From the NCBI GenBank assembly GCA_950295325.1, contig OX485803.1, forward strand, positions 39,137,554 to 39,201,553: a DNA stretch of 64,000 bases, written 5' to 3'. The stretch is from Polytrichum commune (taxonomy: Eukaryota > Streptophyta > Polytrichopsida > Polytrichales > Polytrichaceae). A program made the position numbers and the translations under genes. The notes under the pieces are model-generated. The model ran no database searches. It was not told where the DNA came from and saw nothing but the letters and a program-made list of their open reading frames with translations. How positions within the stretch are numbered: the first letter of the stretch is position 1; each line of letters begins with the position of its first letter. Positions 50,935-64,000 of the stretch are shown here, piece after piece.

Positions 50935-51886
50935 GATCACTCCATTGTCAAGTTGAACACCACGTGCGACCAAAAAAAATCTTCTTTTGGTAAGTTGCAC
51001 CACCAAAATGGGTCAAAATTTTATCAAATTTTTTTCATGAGTAGATATACACAGTACCTATGACATAGTCAAAAGTGGTAACTAAATTTGATGATTTGTT
51101 TTTTTCATAAAACATACCATTTCTAACTAGAACGACACATACTTGAACTAAAAAAATTACTAAAAAAATTAAAGATGACTAAAAATTTCAAAAAAGTATA
51201 CAAAAGATACTATCAATGGTTATGTATATGTAGAAAAAATATCATAAATTTTAAAATTATATATGGCATGTAATATAGGGGTAGCAAACTTTGTCCGCAC
51301 GTGGTGTCAACTTGACAATGAAGTGACCTCCCCGTGTAATGGATCTGAATCGGAAGGATGTGGTCAACCACATGATTGGTGGTGGGGTTTACACAAAACA
51401 TCTTGCTTGGTTCCTCTGGGGTTTACACAAAGCATCTTGCTTGGTTCCTCATGGAATCTAGGGTATTTATGCTTCCCTCATTTTCACGGGGAGGTCACTT
51501 CATTGTCAAGTTGACACCACGTGCGGACAAAGTTTGCTACCCCTATATTACATGCCATATATAATTTTAAAATTTATAATATTTTTTCTACATATACATA
51601 ACCATTGATAGTATCTTTTGTATATTTTTTTGAAATTTTTCGTCATCTTTGTTCTTTTTAGTAATTGTTTTAGTTCAATTCTCTGTCATTCTAGTTAGAA
51701 ATGGTATGTTTTATGGAAAAAACAAATCATCAAATTTAGTTACCACTTTTAACTATGTCATAGGCACTGTGTATATCTACTCATGAAAACAATTTGATAA
51801 AATTTTGACCCATTTTGGTGGTGCAACTTACCAAAAGAAGATTTTTTTTGGTCGCACGTGGTGTTCAACTTGACAATGGAGTGATC
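50935..51886. mobile_element. Giant inverted repeat: two ~400-bp elements head to head
   Basis: Left arm 50935-51336 and right arm 51485-51886 are reverse complements over about 400 bp with only scattered differences; spacer 148 bp. Each arm is itself bounded by a short inverted motif: GATCACTCCATTGTCAAGTT at the outer end and GAGGTCACTTCATTGTCAAG inverted at the inner end, with CACGTGCG or GCACGTGG next to it. The structure is thus two copies of one MITE in opposite orientation, or one long foldback. The spacer carries a 34-bp tandem duplication (GTTTACACAAA.CATCTTGCT at 51387 and 51421). Confidence 0.92.
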
Positions 51887-52097
51887 TCCCCGTAATCCAT
51901 TATGATTTCTAATGCCCGCCAAGCTATTACAACAACCTTCCAAGACTCAAAGACAATGTCCAACTGAACCTTGTGCACCAACAAGACCCAAGTGAACTCC
52001 TTTGCAGCATCCATTGCATGTTTTCGTTTAGTGTCTGCAACAAGGTTCCTTGGTTGCACCTACAACAATCCCCCCAACTCTCTTTGCGAAATAGAGA
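51887..52097 (-). other. Protein-like open segment, unrecognised
   Basis: On the minus strand: MQPRNLVADTKRKHAMDAAK, EFTWVLLVHKVQLDIVFESW, KVVVIAWRALEIIMDYG, then the giant inverted repeat begins. Composition suggests descent from coding sequence cut by the insertion. No domain recognised. Confidence 0.35.
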
Positions 52098-52302: not shown

Positions 52303-53709
52303 ATATCCATTCTTTAAAACAGTAATGGGGGGCATTCACGGTTGGGTAACTACTTTTGGGTGTCTAACGGTTAAAGGACTATTTTGAATAACTTCACATA
52401 CTTGGTGTGCTTAGATTTGTATTGTGAAGCATATTTTGGATCATACCTACATTTCATACTCCGTATTGAGTACACCGACAAAGTTAATTTACAAGGAATA
52501 GGGTTATCTAAGATATCATTTTGATTCCTTAAAGGACATTCATGGGTGTTGTTACATTTGTTCACCTTAGGATCAAGGAATGAAAAGGACACCAAAAATT
52601 AATCGAAATGATCCCAATTTTTTTCCTCACAATCATCGTTCAAGTGTGTACCAATAAAACCAAAAATGTATTCCATACCAATTATATAACTTTACATGTG
52701 GCACCAAACATGGCCAAAAATACATAAATCATGGCTACATGAGAAAAGAACGTTTAGTATTACAATTGGACATAAAAAATTATATGTATGGACACATGAC
52801 ACTTATACCAAGGTACTAAGATGTAAAACAGGAAATAATTGACCTCCAATGCACACCTAAATAGCAAAAAATGCCATTGATGTGGCCAAATTGTCATTTT
52901 TTATATTGGATTCATGTTGCTATGAAAATCCCGTCACCTTCCCGTTGACGCTTAACCGAGAAGATCTCGGCCGTTGGTTCTTCCCGAGATCTGTTCAAAC
53001 GATTCCCAAAGATCTCATCTTGGCCGCTTGTTTGGGCGCCATGGAACAGTGGCCACCCACATCAACCTAAACCTTAAAACACATTTTCTTCGTCTGTCAC
53101 TTCGAAATCATGGAGCTGCTGCGGTGGGTGTACTCTAATATTCTATGTCTGTACATTATGTGTTGTGTATTGAGTCAAATCCATGATCTTTTGAGTATTA
53201 TGAATCATGAGATGAGGTTTTCATACACCACCTTAAACTCTTCCTCATAGAATTTTGGGGAATGACAAGGGTCAGTTTGAGAGTCTTTTAATGAGAAAAT
53301 GGATCTGTGGAGCAGTACTTAGGTTGCACAAGAATACAATATGCCAATTTTTGAACTGCAAATGTGTTCCTGTAGCAAACTTCCCAACTACAAAGTGAGT
53401 GCCCAAAATTACTTTGTCAGATGTTTAGGGTACACAATAGGTTTAAGCAACTCCTATCATATCTTGAGGTGAAGAATTATACCACATGCTTTCAAGTAAC
53501 ATATCATTACTTTCATGTTTTGTGTTTTTGGTATGGAATGGTAGGTGTCTTGAAATTTCAGTGAGGTCCTAGGATATTATTGATGCGTCACCATAACAAT
53601 TTCGTTGTCTGTGATGCAAGTGACGAAACCACATATGTTTGGGCTAACCGTAAACACGATTGTTTGGTATAGGTAAGATCTTGAGTTCAACATCATTGTC
53701 GAGGATACG
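52303..53709. other. No supported gene; possible 5' region of the DDE gene
   Basis: AT-rich, with a GC-richer patch at 52930-53110 that includes GCCGTTGGTTCTTCCCGAGA. No inverted end for the downstream gene could be identified here, so the element boundary is unknown. Confidence 0.4.
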
Positions 53710-54518
53710 ATGGCAAACAAACGAAACCGCCAGGTCCTAGGTCAACATAGTAGGAAGTTATTGGGCGCAATTGCAGCTAAGAGGATCCAGAATACACAAG
53801 CTAAGCGTAAAATTAATGCACAACATAGGAAGCACCAACAAAACTTGAGATTGCAATCTGAAAATGCGGACCATGTTTTTCACATACGTCTAGCTCAGAA
53901 TGTCCTGGAACCCCCATAGAAGGTCCATCATCCTCAACAAAAACTGCATCCCGATTCGGTAAAAGTTGGGTTGTATCTTTGTTACAAGCAACCAACACAA
54001 GAGGGTTGGACTTTCAAAAATTGGTAGTTGAAAGCATCTTGGGTAGTACGGTTCTGCAACATTTCATGCCAGAATATGTACTGAAACGCAAGAAGTTGTT
54101 AGGGTGTGAGGTTGTGAGGTTGTTTGTAATAGTATTGCATCTGCCTAGGACCACTTAAAATTTGGGAAGGGTAAGGATAAATATGTGGCAAGAAATGTGG
54201 TTGAGGTTGCAGTAGTGTCCACAACCTCTGGGTCCAACATGCTGGGTGCTGGAAAATGCATTGGACTCAATAAAACAACACTTTTGAGAGCTAGTCATCG
54301 TAGGCAACTACTTGATGCTGAGGAGGAATACGAATGTTGGGCAAAGGGCGATAGAAAGCCTAGAAAAGACTCCATTCCAGAAGATGTCAAAGATTTAGTT
54401 GGGAAGTGGTATCTTGAAGAGACAAGAACGAGTCCAAACATGGATAATGTAGTTCGGCACCTTATTGGTCGTCATCAATGGGAGCACTATGCTACACATT
54501 TGCTCCAAGAATCAGAGG

Positions 54519-55515
54519 TAAGAGTCATTTTCTTCTTAATTTTTGTTACATTTTCCAAAGTTCATGCTTAAAGTTGATTATACTCAGTTTCTCATGTATT
54601 ACTGGTAGTTCAAAGTACATGCTCCGTTCCTCACAAATCCTTCATGGGATGAGTACATAGGTCATAGTACTTGTTTGGAAGTTTGTATGTATTGGTTTCA
54701 TAGTCATTTTTATAGGCTACATTGTTCACTTTTGGTAAGGACTTTTGCCAAACTCGTAGCTTCCTTACAATCCCCAAGTAACCTCTGATATTCAATGGAT
54801 TTCCAGGGAAATCTTAAGGAACTTTATCATTTTCATGACGCTTCCTTGGGAATCTAAAGTACTCTGTAATTTTCATTTCACTTCCTCGAGATTCTTAAGG
54901 AACTCTCAAATTTCCTTGAAGATTCCTTGGGAATGTAAAGTACTTTCTAATTTTCATTACACTTCTTGGAGATTCTCAAGGAACTCTCAAATTTCCTTGA
55001 AGATTCCTTGGGGATTTAAAGTACTTTCTAATTTTCATCACACTTCCTGGAGATTCTCAAGGAACTCTCAAATTTCCTTGAAGCTTCCTTGGGAATGTAA
55101 AGTACTTTCTTATCTTCATTACATTCCTTGGAGATTGTTAAGGAACTTTCAAGTTTCCTTCAAGCTTCCTTGGGAATTCAAGGTAACTCTTTGATATTCA
55201 TGAGACTTCCTGGAGATTTGTTAGGAACTCCCAAATTTCCAAAAGTTTCCTTGCGAACCTTCAGTATTTCTTTAATATTGATGTACCGTCACGTAAATTA
55301 TTATATTATTGTACATTCATTGGATCCCAAATGCAAAATATCCTTATTCCTTGATCTCCATCTACTCCTTCAAGACACAGAATGAGGCACATCATGATTT
55401 TTCCTCATTTTATTACACTCCACAATACTTATGTATATTATTTTCATAGCAGTACCTAACATGACTCTCACCTGCATGTGTACTAATGTGTACGATGTTT
55501 TGCATGCAAGCATAG
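54519..55515 (+). other. Phase-0 GT-AG intron in the DDE gene
   Basis: 997 bp. Donor GTAAGAGTC follows QESE; acceptor GCAAGCATAG precedes VDFYTRF. Both flanking exons are coding-like and join without a frame change, and the intron interior is non-coding apart from the minisatellite. Confidence 0.75.
54844..55248 (+). repeat. 81-bp minisatellite inside the intron
   Basis: CCTTGGGAA/CCTTGGGGA starts recur at 54844, 54925, 55006, 55087 and 55168, exactly 81 bp apart; the last unit is diverged, and a poorer unit lies upstream near 54781. Each unit has TAAAGTACTTTCTAATTTTC, CACTTCCTGGAGATT and AAGGAACTCTCAAATTTCC. Because 81 is a multiple of 3 the array stays open as a 27-residue repeat peptide (119 codons, 54835-55194), which is a by-product, not evidence of a protein. 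Confidence 0.92.
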
Positions 55516-57494
55516 GTGGATTTCTACACTAGATTTAAAGTTGCACATCCAACACTGGATATTGGATTCATTTCCTTTCACAAGCTGAAGCCTTATTTTG
55601 TGAGGAAGTCAAAAGATTTCAACACATGTTGTTGTAAATATCATCAAGAGATGATAGAAATCAAGGTGGGCTTCAATAACTTGAGGGCCCCAATAGTACA
55701 TCAACAAGGTTTGAATTCTCCTTGTGCTTGTTGTTGTGAATCCACTTGTGGGAATCCAATCAACGGAGCATGTCAAGGGCAAGGAATATCATGTCAAGCT
55801 ACTTACCATACCTACAAATCTTGTTCAGATTTATGGGAAAAGTTTTTATGTCCCAAAGTCAGGGGACACGAATGGTTCAATTTAAAATGTTTGACAAGTA
55901 GTTGTGTCAAATGTGGTGTTCAACTACTCCTAGCTTGCAGCAAGGAATTGGATTATGAAGACACTACTTTAGTAGCTTGGAGAAGATTTGAGAAAACTCT
56001 TGCAAGGGAAAACTAAGAAGGGAGAGGATAAGTTTGTCACTAGGCTAGAGAGAAAAATGTCGAGCCCTAGAGAGTTCGTGATTTATGCAACTCCCAAAAT
56101 TCAAAAATTTATCATGCATAATTTTCTGGCACAATGGCAGGATAGACAATTCAGGATTAGTAAGGAAAATTTAAAGAGGATGAGATCATGTCCCTTATAG
56201 ATTTCTCTGAGAATTCCTCCTTCAAGACACAAAATGAGGTGCAAGAGCAACATTGGTATAATTTCCAGCTTTCGATTTTAGTGCACATTAGATATAGGGT
56301 GAACCCAAAGTATGACCCTAGTGATAGTAAGAGCCTAAGGTTAAACACTGATTATCACTATTACATAAGTGATGATCGCAAACACGACAACCTGTTTGTC
56401 CAACATTGTCTCAATCTACATTGGCAATATTTAACATCACTAGGGTTCTATCCAAAACGCCATATAGTCTGGAGCGATGGTTGTGCAAGCCAATTTAAAG
56501 GTACAAGGCCTTGGTTTTTTGTGTCACGTTATCCCAGTTTGACATCATGTGATCAATTGCCACTTGGTTGCGCAATGCAATGGAACTATTGGGGGTCCGG
56601 TCATGGAAAGGGACCTCATGACGGGGCAGGTACTTGCCTTAAGCAAGCATTGTGAAAGGAGCAACTAAAGCCGTATGGAGCACGTTTGCAAAATGCATTT
56701 GATGTTGTTGACTTCCTCAAAAACTCCATGAATAAGGACCATGCAGCATATGTTGGTGCTCGAAGGGAGGTGAAACGAAACTTCCATGAGATCAAAGAGA
56801 ACATGGTTGATCGTCAACATGGATTCAATTGCTGAACAGTAAAATGGTCACATAGTTTGCACTCAGTGCGCTCCATGAGTCTATCCAACAATGTCTTGTT
56901 GGAAACCAGAGCATTGGCATGCTTTTGTGATGGATCTGTTGACCCTAAACCTGGATTATTTTGTGTATCTACATCACATGTGCCTCCTTGGAAGTTAGTG
57001 ACATTGCAACCATGTGCAGCTGATGATGCTGAATGTGATGTAGAACTACACACTAATGTTTGGGGCAATCCAGGAGATAGTAATGAGTTTGCGTCCATAT
57101 TGGATGTTGGAGACAACTTTACTGTCAAGGTTGACTCCGCTGATGGAGAAGGAGCATCATTCTACATAGTCCAGTGTTTCAAAAGACTGCATGTTGTCAA
57201 CAAAGCTGAAGGACCAGATCCATACGGTATAAAAGTGGACCAAGGTGATGAGGTAGTGCTCGGTGTGTACTATAAGCAGTCTGGACAAAGTCCTACATCG
57301 TTTGTTCTACAATCAGACGTGGGTCCATGTTTTATTTACACCCATTGGGTAATTGCGTCAAAGTTCCCCATGGTGCAAGCTCATCACACACAAAAAAAAG
57401 GGACAAAGTTGTGTATGCACTCCCACAAACTGCACTACATGAGATAGAAGCAGCTTTGGAGGAGTGTGGAGGATCCGATGACGATGAATGTTGA

Positions 57495-59987: not shown

Positions 59988-60856
59988 TTAAACATCCAGT
60001 CTTTTTTGTATGGAATCAATGTTCTTTTGAAGAGTACCACCTTCTCCAACAAGGGAAACTAATTCATCAAGAGCATGTTTTACTTCCAATGCACAAAAAA
60101 TGTGAAAGTCTGCATCAGCCTCAGGACCACAAGCAGTTTGTTGCGCACGTGCCACTTCAAGGCGATCCTTGCACTGCAAGGTTTGGTATCCAATCTGGCT
60201 AAGATTACTTTGAACAAGCTTAATCTCTGCCCTTAGCCCAATGACAAACGCATCTCTATCACTCAACAACCTCATCAGGAGTTCTATTTTCTTTGCAAGT
60301 GCTTCTTTCTTCATATTGCAAACATGATCTTCATTTACAAATGAGGGATTGGGAGATTTCATAGGAGCATCACTCACTCTCTCACAAGTTGGAAACTTAG
60401 GAGAGGTAATAGGAGATTTACCCTTTCCCTTTATGTTTGTTGTGACAAGTGAAGTAGTAGGAGAGCTAATTGTCACAAAATCTGAATGTGGACGTTTATG
60501 TGCTTTATAGCCAAAGACTTGAACCACAACTGCAAATAAGGCCCAATTGATTGTACTACCTCTCCTCTCAGCGATGACTCCAAGTGCAATGGAGAGGCCA
60601 ACTTCTTTGGCTTGTGGCCATTCTCTTTGGTAAACCAAGGGCCACAAGGTAAGGATCCTCTCCTGCAGTTCCTTGGGATCTTTGTCCATGAAATGGTAAC
60701 CACCGTGACCTTGCCTAATTCCCCACAGACTATCACATTCTCGAATCAAGCCATCTCGCCCCTCAAAATCAACCTTCCTAGGATTCAAACCCACAATAGG
60801 AAGACCCACATGGTCCCTGAACCACTCAAATGAACCCCAATTACTCTCAACCATCC
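59988..60856 (-). CDS. Uncharacterised 289-residue protein with C-terminal coiled coil
   Basis: Not recognised. The open frame reaches up to 61001, but I start it at the ATG at 60854: the preceding sequence is a pyrimidine-rich tract ending TTGTATTCCAG, a good intron acceptor, and its translation (Pro/Leu/Phe-rich) is unlike the rest. Residues about 1-115 form a compact Trp/aromatic-rich region: SNWGSFEWFRDHVGLPIVGL, NPRKVDFEGRDGLIRECDSL, LTLWPLVYQREWPQAKEVGL, INWALFAVVVQ. A Ser/Thr/Pro/Lys linker follows (SPTTSLVTTNIKGKGKSPIT). The last 120 residues are heptad-like: KKEALAKKIELLMRLLSDRD, FVIGLRAEIKLVQSNLSQIG. No stop or shift interrupts it, unlike its neighbours. It lies on the same strand as, and 585 bp downstream of, the decayed gene at 61.4-64 kb. 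It may be the 5' half of the same gene family, or an accessory ORF of a mobile element. Confidence 0.6.
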
Positions 60857-62035
60857 TGGAATACAAAGTGTAGATATGGAAGTGAAGGGGAGGAAGCTGA
60901 GGAAGAGTGGGAGGGGGCTGACAAAATGGAAAAGACCTGGTAGAGAAAGAAACTTTACATAGTAGGTTGGGTTGGAATAGTTTCTCACATAGAACTAGCA
61001 ATTATTTCATGCAACTTGCACATTATGTCCACATTAGTCGTTAATACATAGATGTACGATGAACTCGACTACTCCTAATGAGATGGTCGTTTGAACTTGA
61101 TTAAGGCAAGGGGAAGTTCTCCTAAACTCAAATGATATTCATAAATTGAAATGATACCAAGGGGGGTTTGCAAGGAAATGTACCTTGTGCAATTGAGGCC
61201 ATTTAAAGGCAATGATGATTAGGAAATTCACCATCAGGTGCATTATTGAACACTAGTAAAACATGTGGAATGAGGATCAAAGTAGACATACAAAGATTAG
61301 TTGGGGAATTAACACATGCAATGATGAGAGTCCAAGTGCAATGCTCTTGAATTCAAAAAATGGCTTTCCATTTTGAACAAATAACCAAATGGAAAAACAA
61401 TGTTTTGTTGATCTACATTGACTAAATTCCTCAATATACTAGAGCCTATGAAACCAAGAAAGAGAACTTGAAAGCTCTAAGACAATTTCATCATTTTTTG
61501 GCCTTTTCTGGGAGCAAGAGGCCCTCGTAGCCTGGTTTGAACTCTTGGAAAGGGGGCAGGTTGTGTTGGACTTTTTTTTCCTTTTTTTCACCTCCCTTGT
61601 TATGTCTTCTTGTGTGCCTTGACTTTCATTATGAAGAGCAAGACCATCAACTGTATTATCTACAGTTGTAGTCAGTTGATGCTCCGACTCCAGATTATTG
61701 ACCTGGGTTTCACGATCTTTCTCTAAACTTGCAACCCAGGTCAGTAATCCTGCATCATCATCATCACTATCAGTAAGATAATTGTTACCTAGGATTGGAT
61801 CATCCCCTGCAATTTCTACACATTGCAACCCTCATTTTTTATTCTTTCTGGTCATCTGGTTGGAATTGTTGCAGATGATGAAGGAATTAAATGTTGCCGA
61901 CAGAGATAGGACCAAGGGATGTACAGGAGGGGAGTTAGGTTGTAGAAGGTGCCACCCTTTAATTGTGGTTGAACATGTTGGGCACCTTGTTAGTCCTTGA
62001 ACACATGCGAAACAAAAATCAGCATTTCCACAATC

Positions 62036-62141
62036 CTGCAGCCATCCACACATCATGTTAATGGCGTAAACAATTGAAATAGAAACTACAAAGGTCATTG
62101 ATGAAGCAACTCCTTTGAACTAACACAAAAAGGGATCGTAC
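62036..62141 (-). other. 106-bp intron splitting a RING-like finger
   Basis: Donor CAG|GTACGATC, acceptor GGCTGCAG|GATTG, phase 0. Removing it joins CKICAINPAKVCLQ to DCGNADFCFAC and completes a regular Cys spacing, which is the evidence that it is a true intron. Confidence 0.8.
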
Positions 62142-62413
62142 CTGAAGGCAAACTTTGGCTGGATTTATTGCACATATCTTGCAAGGTTGAAGTATTTTTT
62201 TTGCAATGTTGGGACTGGTCGCACTATTGGGTGAATCATCATGTGATAGATGAGGTGAATCATCAGGGGAATCTTGTTGTGACTCCTCAGGTATTTGGTG
62301 AGGTGTGGGGAGTCCAGGTATATGAGCAGTAGCCAATGAATGTGGTGATGCAGTCGAAGGTGAGCTGGATGGAGCATAGCACGATGCCCCATGTTCCACA
62401 ATAGTTCCTGAAT

Positions 62414-63083
62414 CTGCAAAAACAACAAGTACTTGGAAATCAATTTTTTATTTATTGATTTTATGGTTCAAAGGATTTTTTCCTGAAATTTTTATGCAAG
62501 GTAAAAGTAGTAAGTCAGGAATGTTAAAAGTACTTTGGCATGCAAAAGGAAGGCAACATGTCACTCAAGGAAAGTTCAGGAATTTGTGAACTAGTTTTGG
62601 TATGATTTAGGACCTTTGAAGTACTTTAATATTGAGAGGAGGAAAAAAAAGTAAAGTACTTACAAGGCAAGTAATCTATGAAAATAAGAAATAAATAGCC
62701 GGAAGTACCAAGTATTCATAAAGGACTTTGTGCCGATGGCAAAGGGTTTAGGAAGTTCCTGAAGATTGAAAAGGACTCCCATACATCCTTAGGCTTTACT
62801 TTCGCCTAAACCCTAAACCCACAGAATTCACCCATGACTTCCAAGGAATTCATTGAACTCCAAACACATTCCATGCATGTCAAGAATGGGTTTTTTGTTC
62901 TTGCATGAAGCATACAAAGAAAGGACTTTGTCTTGAATATACTCTAAAGCATGCAGAAGATATAAGGAGAAGGGAATGAAAACAAGTAGTACTAGGAATG
63001 TTTGCAAAGTTATTTAGGTCATTTATTTCACTAAACAAGAAATGAACACATAAAATAATGCAAGTTAGAGTAAGTGTGCTCAC
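62414..63083 (-). other. 670-bp phase-1 intron
   Basis: Donor CAATCTG|GTGAGC, acceptor TTGTTGTTTTTGCAG|ATTCAGG. The join gives an uninterrupted NNISPQSDSGTIVEHGAS. The interior is AT-rich and carries CCTAAACCCTAAACCC near 62803. Confidence 0.7.
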
Positions 63084-64000
63084 CAGATTGAGGAGATATG
63101 TTGTTTAAGGCAAGAATTGTAGGCTTCCGCCCATGTTCTCCATAAGGTCTTATTCCCCATGTTGTGAGGCATTTGATGTCAATATCTTCTCCACGATCAG
63201 GAACTAAACATGCTAGCGAATTTCTAGCATGTTATGTAAAAACACCGTGGATGGTAGGTGTGGCCACAACTAGCTGCCAAATGCTCATGACATTCATACC
63301 ACAAATTGCAAACACGACAAGGGTTGAGTATGGAAATACTCTCTTTTGGGGAGTCTGGATGTGAGGGAAGGGGTTGTGGATAGAGGATTGCACCTCCACC
63401 CTTCTCCATTCTCAAAATTCGTTGTTGGAAAGCAGGTTGCAAGGACTCCAAGGACTTCATGATGACCAAAATAGATTTGTATTCCTTCCCGTCTAAGCCC
63501 TCGCCTTCATGTAGGGCATCACACTCCTCTCTGGTAACCCTAAGCTTCTCTACTGCATACCTCTCAGTCATCCTTTCACATGCTTTCTGGCATTCTAATT
63601 CCTTAAGGGTTTCAGAAGCCAACCTCAGCGCATCTTTCTTTTGAGCAATTTCAGAATCAAAGTGCCCAATATCAGATCCACTGTATCCAATGTCTAAACA
63701 AGCGGATTTTTTTCACTAAAAGGTCTTTAAGCACGGTCTCTAAGTTCTCAACAACCACCTTGGCTGCAGTAACTTTAACATCATATTTCTCAAACTCAGA
63801 CAGGGTTGCATTGTAAATGGCTTCATGCTAGGATAACAAAAGTTGAATCCTTTGAGCCCCAATAGTTTTTTTTCTCTCCTTCTAATTTGAGGACCTCTGC
63901 CTTCTATTTTAGACTTGCACACAATTGTTCTTTACGAACCAATGTGGCTTTCATGCCCTCAATGTCCAGTACAGACCAATTAGGAGGTGTTATAACCTTC

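Follow-up and report, generated by a model that had tools for sequence, protein, structure and literature searches.

The question raised by this locus is what kind of gene occupies positions 53710-57494 of the analysed stretch of Polytrichum commune DNA (64,000 nucleotides, referred to below as the window), and to what larger unit it belongs. In a preliminary description it had been read as the decayed transposase of an unplaced DDE lineage. With good confidence, the locus can now be regarded as a decayed, once autonomous copy of a cut-and-paste DNA transposon of 12.75 kb, most likely of the Sola superfamily. The transposase gene itself is laid out as follows:

53710-54517, forward strand: transposase exon 1, decayed, with a basic N-terminus (tblastn with the sister-family exon 1: three collinear pieces, E 1.6e-20)
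54518-55515, forward strand: predicted transposase intron, GT..AG, 998 bp (splice ends from the sequence)
55516-57494, forward strand: transposase exon 2, decayed, with a Cys-rich part, the D/D/D core and a beta-rich C-terminal part (sequence and alignment)
56164-56655, forward strand: core with three conserved Asp (IDFSEN, WSDGC, HGKGPHDGAG), closed by an in-frame TGA (sequence, genome search and alignment)

Exon 1 opens at 53710 with the basic peptide MANKRNRQ, and the predicted splice junctions read CAGAG/GTAAG at the end of exon 1 and AG/GTGGATTTC at the start of exon 2, in phase 0. The Cys cluster is located within 55516-56016, the motifs IDFSEN, WSDGCASQFK and SGHGKGPHDGAG all lie in frame 56164-56655, and the beta-rich C-terminal part reaches 57494. 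The ordered motif set of the preliminary description (basic start, GT..AG intron, Cys cluster, core motifs and beta-rich end) is therefore recovered in full. Its claim of decay holds as well, given frame breaks in exon 1, near 56000, near 56185 and near 57400, and in-frame TGA codons in exon 2 at 56653 and 56833. Inside the intron, at 54812-55240, an 81-bp unit is repeated ~5.3 times in tandem.

The unit to which this gene belongs is considerably longer, and its left part falls into the window:

52324-52327, unstranded: left target-site duplication AATG (right AATG at 65079-65082 equivalent, beyond the window; L022 1079-1082)
52328-64000, forward strand: section of the transposon inside the window (12,751 bp in all; its right end, at 65078 equivalent, is L022 position 1078)
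52328-52360, forward strand: left terminal inverted repeat GGGGGCATTCACGGTTGGG..., ~33 bp, imperfect (comparison with the right end)

The focal element (family A) thus measures 12,751 bp, is bounded by imperfect inverted repeats of ~33 bp (GGG…CCC) and is flanked by AATG on either side. The left boundary at 52328 is common to the focal element and three other copies; two lines of evidence, homology with copy A3 and the inverted repeat, place the right end 1,078 bp past the window. As a span, 53710-57494 remains valid for the transposase gene; the whole element, from 52328 to 65078 equivalent, with its ends and a cassette of RING-type genes, had been overlooked. A separate repeat of ~410 bp at 51484-51893 of the window is 95.6% identical to a stretch that flanks copy B3 on its right-hand side.

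Four copies of sister family B, each with its own flanks, are 99.3-99.6% identical from end to end in three one-piece pairs, with 98.7-99.8% identity by block for the copy carrying an insertion. The termini of this family start with GGGAGGAAGCATCC and end with GGATGCTTACACCC, and the family B end was found at 16 places in the P. commune genome. In a third family, D, the ends read GGGTAGAAGCACGC or a close variant of it, and the elements measure 8.5 and 8.8 kb. Another repeat of ~1.8 kb, 92.6% identical between the two, is inserted in both copy A1 (L019) and copy B2 (L018).

Perfect 4-bp duplications were found for 12 of 13 elements (eight large, five short), namely those with both ends retrieved; copies A1, A2 and A4, without a usable right end, were left out, and in scoring, a shift of the right end of at most 6 bases was permitted so that it met a CCC. 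For copy A3, the start on the left was moved one base earlier after inspection of both ends. The single exception is the short copy L101, whose right end is eroded and which was not scored as a match. The 12 readable duplications (GTAT, CGGA, ATAA, GCTG, AATG, TCAT, ATAA, ATGT, CAAT, CTTC, ATGT and GTCT) vary in sequence and reveal no fixed target site. Across the elements, the imperfect inverted repeats span ~16-35 bp; seven large elements measure 8.5-13.8 kb, and one with an insertion 15.6 kb. The edges of the blocks common to L012-L015, four copies that represent two further families, displayed no inverted ends.

When the leftmost 300 bp of the focal element served as query, all 40 places that were scored, its own among them, matched at 93-100% identity; they belong to a set of 595 candidates of which most were unscored. 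All five short copies that were opened measure 808-811 bp (~810 bp), carry both family A ends, with the right end eroded in one of them, and are 95-97% identical to one another. These copies are non-autonomous derivatives of the focal family. The elements have been mobile in the past, and the interpretation of the gene as the decayed transposase of a DNA transposon is confirmed by its multiple copies, ends, target duplications and non-autonomous derivatives. Terminal repeats and target duplication, which the preliminary description had left to an alignment of genomic copies, are both defined by that alignment.

For the protein itself, the 163-aa core gave at least 90 match rows in the P. commune genome, itself included (408 Mb in 64 contigs, seven of them large; counts are rough). 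With an E value of 6.7e-108 for the best match elsewhere in this genome, the similarity is, as judged from sequence, far above chance level. Core identity amounts to 91-94% for four near-full matches and to ~30-66% for further families, some of these matches being short or broken; the reading frame around several other core matches stays open for 560-690 codons, and others are truncated or broken. In an alignment of eight transposase ORFs (38-47% identity to the first row), the core motifs are among the invariant columns, and so is a CFC..C motif; the Cys-rich N-terminal half is mostly conserved among those members that include it. The three acidic core positions proposed earlier were indeed recovered at the named motifs, since D232, D324 and D372 (B-copy numbering), spaced by 91 and 47 residues, are invariant in all eight proteins. 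E244, D288 and E544 are likewise invariant in 8/8; hence, the three candidate catalytic Asp were picked by motif and position.

Profile and structure searches added little. The Pfam search with the eight transposase ORFs returned nothing useful and no BAH profile on the tail, so that the BAH-like, chromatin-reader-like tail of the preliminary description finds no counterpart there. In NCBIfam, four ORFs gave no match, and PDB sequence searches yielded no relevant match (a single irrelevant one at E 5.2). AlphaFold, run on the window protein alone without relatives, returned mean pLDDT values of 32 and 37, and structure prediction thus gives an RNase H fold no support. Chou-Fasman averaging over the alignment indicated that D324 is immediately preceded by a strand and D372 followed by a helix; near D232, it gave a two-residue strand only and another strand where the RNase H fold expects a helix, a weak and mixed signal. 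An RNase H fold of the transposase is thus putative.

As to its placement, the element probably belongs to the Sola superfamily by published description, because 4-bp duplications, DDD pattern, terminal repeats and size all agree with it; the lineage is thus probably not unplaced, as had been claimed. Kolobok elements duplicate TTAA, and so do piggyBac elements; none of the 12 readable duplications is TTAA, and both were rejected (for the piggyBac target, see PMC5199201). A Ginger element was rejected in the absence of a Gypsy-like integrase core, no integrase profile being among the Pfam matches of the eight proteins. KDZ/Zisupton was likewise discarded: Pfam includes a KDZ transposase profile, and none of the eight proteins matched it. 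Sola elements are described as having a DDD transposase, 4-bp duplications, a size of 2-9 kb with some above 15 kb, and terminal repeats of 11-1124 bp (PMC10741241). The repeats of ~16-35 bp and element sizes of 8.5-15.6 kb found here lie within these ranges, and the 4-bp duplication is present in 12 of 13 elements, the remaining one having an eroded right end.

It is somewhat unlikely that the DNA transposon, otherwise as described, belongs to another superfamily with 4-bp duplications, such as AcademX, or to a yet undescribed one. AcademX makes 3- or 4-bp duplications (PMC10045372), which fits the length observed, no Pfam profile places the transposase, and the Sola match is one by description only. 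However, duplication length, DDD pattern and sizes agree with Sola, and AcademX is implied to encode a nuclease (PMC10045372), whereas no nuclease profile was found in the eight transposase ORFs or the scanned accessory ORFs.

Downstream of the transposase, on the opposite strand, the focal element carries traces of three accessory genes:

59991-61001, reverse strand: g2, 337-codon ORF with a ~100-aa N-terminal domain common to g4 (sequence comparison)
61835-62447, reverse strand: presumed g3 remnant, two pieces with RING-like Cys pairs (by eye only)
63227-64000, reverse strand: g4, broken in the focal copy (63227-63712 encodes the RING-H2 end; the N-terminal domain, at 64021-64551 equivalent, falls beyond the window)

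The arrangement is best read from a fully read family B copy, in which g2, g3 and g4 follow the transposase on the opposite strand, i.e., in convergent orientation. Here, g2 is an acidic, coiled-coil-like protein of 568 codons, g3 a RING protein of C3HC4 type in two ORF pieces, and g4 a protein of 552 codons with a RING-H2 end; the N-terminal domain of ~100 residues is common to g2 and g4. A g4 laid out in the same way, 506 codons long, is present in family D, so g4 is found in three transposon families (A, B and D). In three g4 proteins, one per family, the RING-H2 ligands C476, C479, C493, H495, H498, C501, C512 and C517 are invariant and in cross-brace order, the last Cys pair being Cx4C, while the A and D proteins are otherwise only 30% and 25% identical to that of B. 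Pfam RING scores fell below the cut-offs, with 12.9-20.7 bits vs 27.3 for g4 and at best 26.3 bits vs 27 for g3, the latter with a query joined across a presumed intron. With the sister-family g3 as tblastn query, nothing at the focal locus reached E 1e-3; in another focal-family remnant (L033), a match at 3e-5 was obtained. Beside a further focal-family remnant, a long open leucine-rich-repeat array was noticed by eye (L034 8239-9498).

Whether these genes belong to the element was addressed by their genomic association. Among the matches listed, 33 of 55 g4-like loci lie at most 15 kb from a core match. When loci were placed at random on the same chromosomes 2000 times, an average of 0.34 and never more than 4 fell within that distance; transposon clustering is not modelled in this control. 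For this comparison, 90 core rows were merged by hand to 75 loci, a lower bound, and 84 g4 rows to 55 loci, 29 being dropped as extra pieces or paralogous g2 of counted loci; the g4 counts are lower bounds as well, 79 of 149 candidates having been scored. From the 22 g4-like loci without a core match inside 15 kb, four were opened. Two of them are focal-family remnants in which element DNA extends as far as the right end; for the other two (L107 and L108), no tie to any element was found. The latter contain open frames of 510 and 500 codons (L107 3140-4669, L108 3499-4998), relatives of g2/g4 with no transposase match in the 9 kb retrieved, and represent either divergent elements or host genes; in the L108 relative of g4, the first pair is Cx3C.

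Selection was assessed by comparing a B copy with two relatives (proteins 79-91% identical). Both comparisons gave the transposase a dN/dS ratio of 0.15 and g3, of which 231 and 243 codons were compared, one of 0.27, with g4 at 0.24 and 0.31; in two further transposase comparisons, between B and family D, dS was saturated. The 552-codon frame of g4 is open in all five places where g4 is present at 99-100% identity, and the 292-codon frame of g3 is intact at four of these, the fifth being split by one stop. Given the low dN/dS and the linkage, the accessory RING-type genes appear to be retained by selection.

That the RING genes are captured host passengers without a role in transposition is unlikely. 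DNA transposons commonly capture genes (PMC6431247), and two of the four opened transposase-less g4-like loci show no tie to an element. Against this stand the recurrence of one g4 layout in three families, with transposase identities of 42-47% to that of family B, the g4 dN/dS of 0.24-0.31 and the frames preserved in 5/5 (g4) and 4/5 (g3) places. A domesticated, immobile host gene family with transposase-like motifs is practically untenable, as the long open frames retained in some copies are set against target duplications, inverted ends, differing flanks and non-autonomous copies, and the idea is refuted for the 12 of 13 copies with ends and duplications read.

Within the P. commune genome, four LEAFY matches mark the host as a land plant, whose LEAFY sequence appears bryophyte-like. 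Outside this genome, viral, phage and prokaryote searches brought to light a single relative. Profile-based scans of viral contigs found no relatives of the transposase, and phage records contained no match to it. A DNA pattern for HGKG..DG hit 61 viral stretches, only one of which (L047) matches the family profile, weakly (E 0.009); it was rejected as a viral relative, its genes looking like phage tail genes. Among prokaryote genomes, one locus (L030; contig CAKZGI010000474.1 of a MAG named uncultured Trichormus) carries a transposase relative. Part of this contig reads, by eye, like a LINE, and Trichormus is the cyanobiont of Azolla; the contig is therefore probably fern host DNA contaminating a cyanobiont MAG.

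Long tandem arrays occur in two focal-family copies and one D copy; in copy L006 of the focal family, the period is 81 or 163 bp (~7.7 or 3.9 copies). One B locus is covered by L008 (its first 8.5 kb) and L016 (the remainder). No long array was found in L008, where two diverged 164-bp copies were detected by BLAST only; L016 holds short-unit arrays only. With this distribution, a VANC-like role for the arrays was set aside.

By the mechanism proposed, a spliced transposase of ~890 codons (estimated from the sister-family copy) would bind the GGG...CCC inverted ends, a putative RNase H-type active site of three Asp would excise the element, and the enzyme would insert it at sites of varied sequence with a 4-bp stagger, giving rise to the 4-bp duplications. 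The opposite-strand downstream genes would encode element-borne helper proteins, and the RING proteins would most likely be ubiquitin-ligase-type factors that aid expression or transposition, e.g., by countering host silencing; the helper role is suggested by analogy to VANC of VANDAL, and both ligase activity and its target are predictions. More tentatively, one possibility is a giant plant transposon lineage with its own ubiquitin-ligase-like system, in which mobility requires co-inherited RING proteins that tag host factors of silencing or repair for elimination. If true, such an arrangement of two to four components would be a new design for a eukaryotic DNA transposon.

The identity of 99.3-99.6% among family B copies, together with open transposase and g4 frames, suggests that this sister family was recently active. 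With the short, non-autonomous derivatives of the focal family as ready substrates, the role of transposon-encoded RING proteins can be tested directly, which bears on the means by which mobile elements counteract silencing in plants. In addition, ends and duplications are now defined for a transposase unrecognised by Pfam. To our knowledge, large DNA transposons with conserved helper genes seem to have been little studied in non-flowering plants.

Among known systems, MuDR of maize has transposase and helper genes transcribed towards each other. This convergent layout is shared by the present element, whereas MuDR has a Mutator transposase and longer target duplications. Sola has been reported from moss and ferns, and also from Capsicum (PMC10741241, PMC9033089, PMC6786969, PMC6890710); it is present in Physcomitrella and uncommon in flowering plants (PMC10741241), and SOLA elements are more numerous in Azolla than in Salvinia (PMC6786969). 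Compared by description only, Sola (Sola1 of Physcomitrella, also named for Capsicum; SOLA of Azolla and Ceratopteris) resembles the present element in 4-bp duplications, DDD-type pattern, inverted ends, large size and occurrence in non-flowering plants. In contrast to the element described here, a RING cassette is unmentioned in the available parts of those accounts; nor was a RING-bearing transposon cassette of this type found in searches of the open-licence literature, and a literature search with the peptide motif found nothing relevant. In VANDAL of Arabidopsis, VANC is a helper protein encoded by a DNA transposon, as proposed here; it strips methylation from DNA, and the sequences it targets are often arranged in tandem repeats (PMC5735166). 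VANC is, however, a different protein from the present RING proteins, which are known from their genes alone. A further comparable element is Sola1-1_Ec32 of the brown alga Ectocarpus, a giant Sola-1 of 21.5 kb with an accessory gene opposite the transposase strand, whose product combines a ParB-like part with a DNA methyltransferase instead of a RING (PMC12477816).
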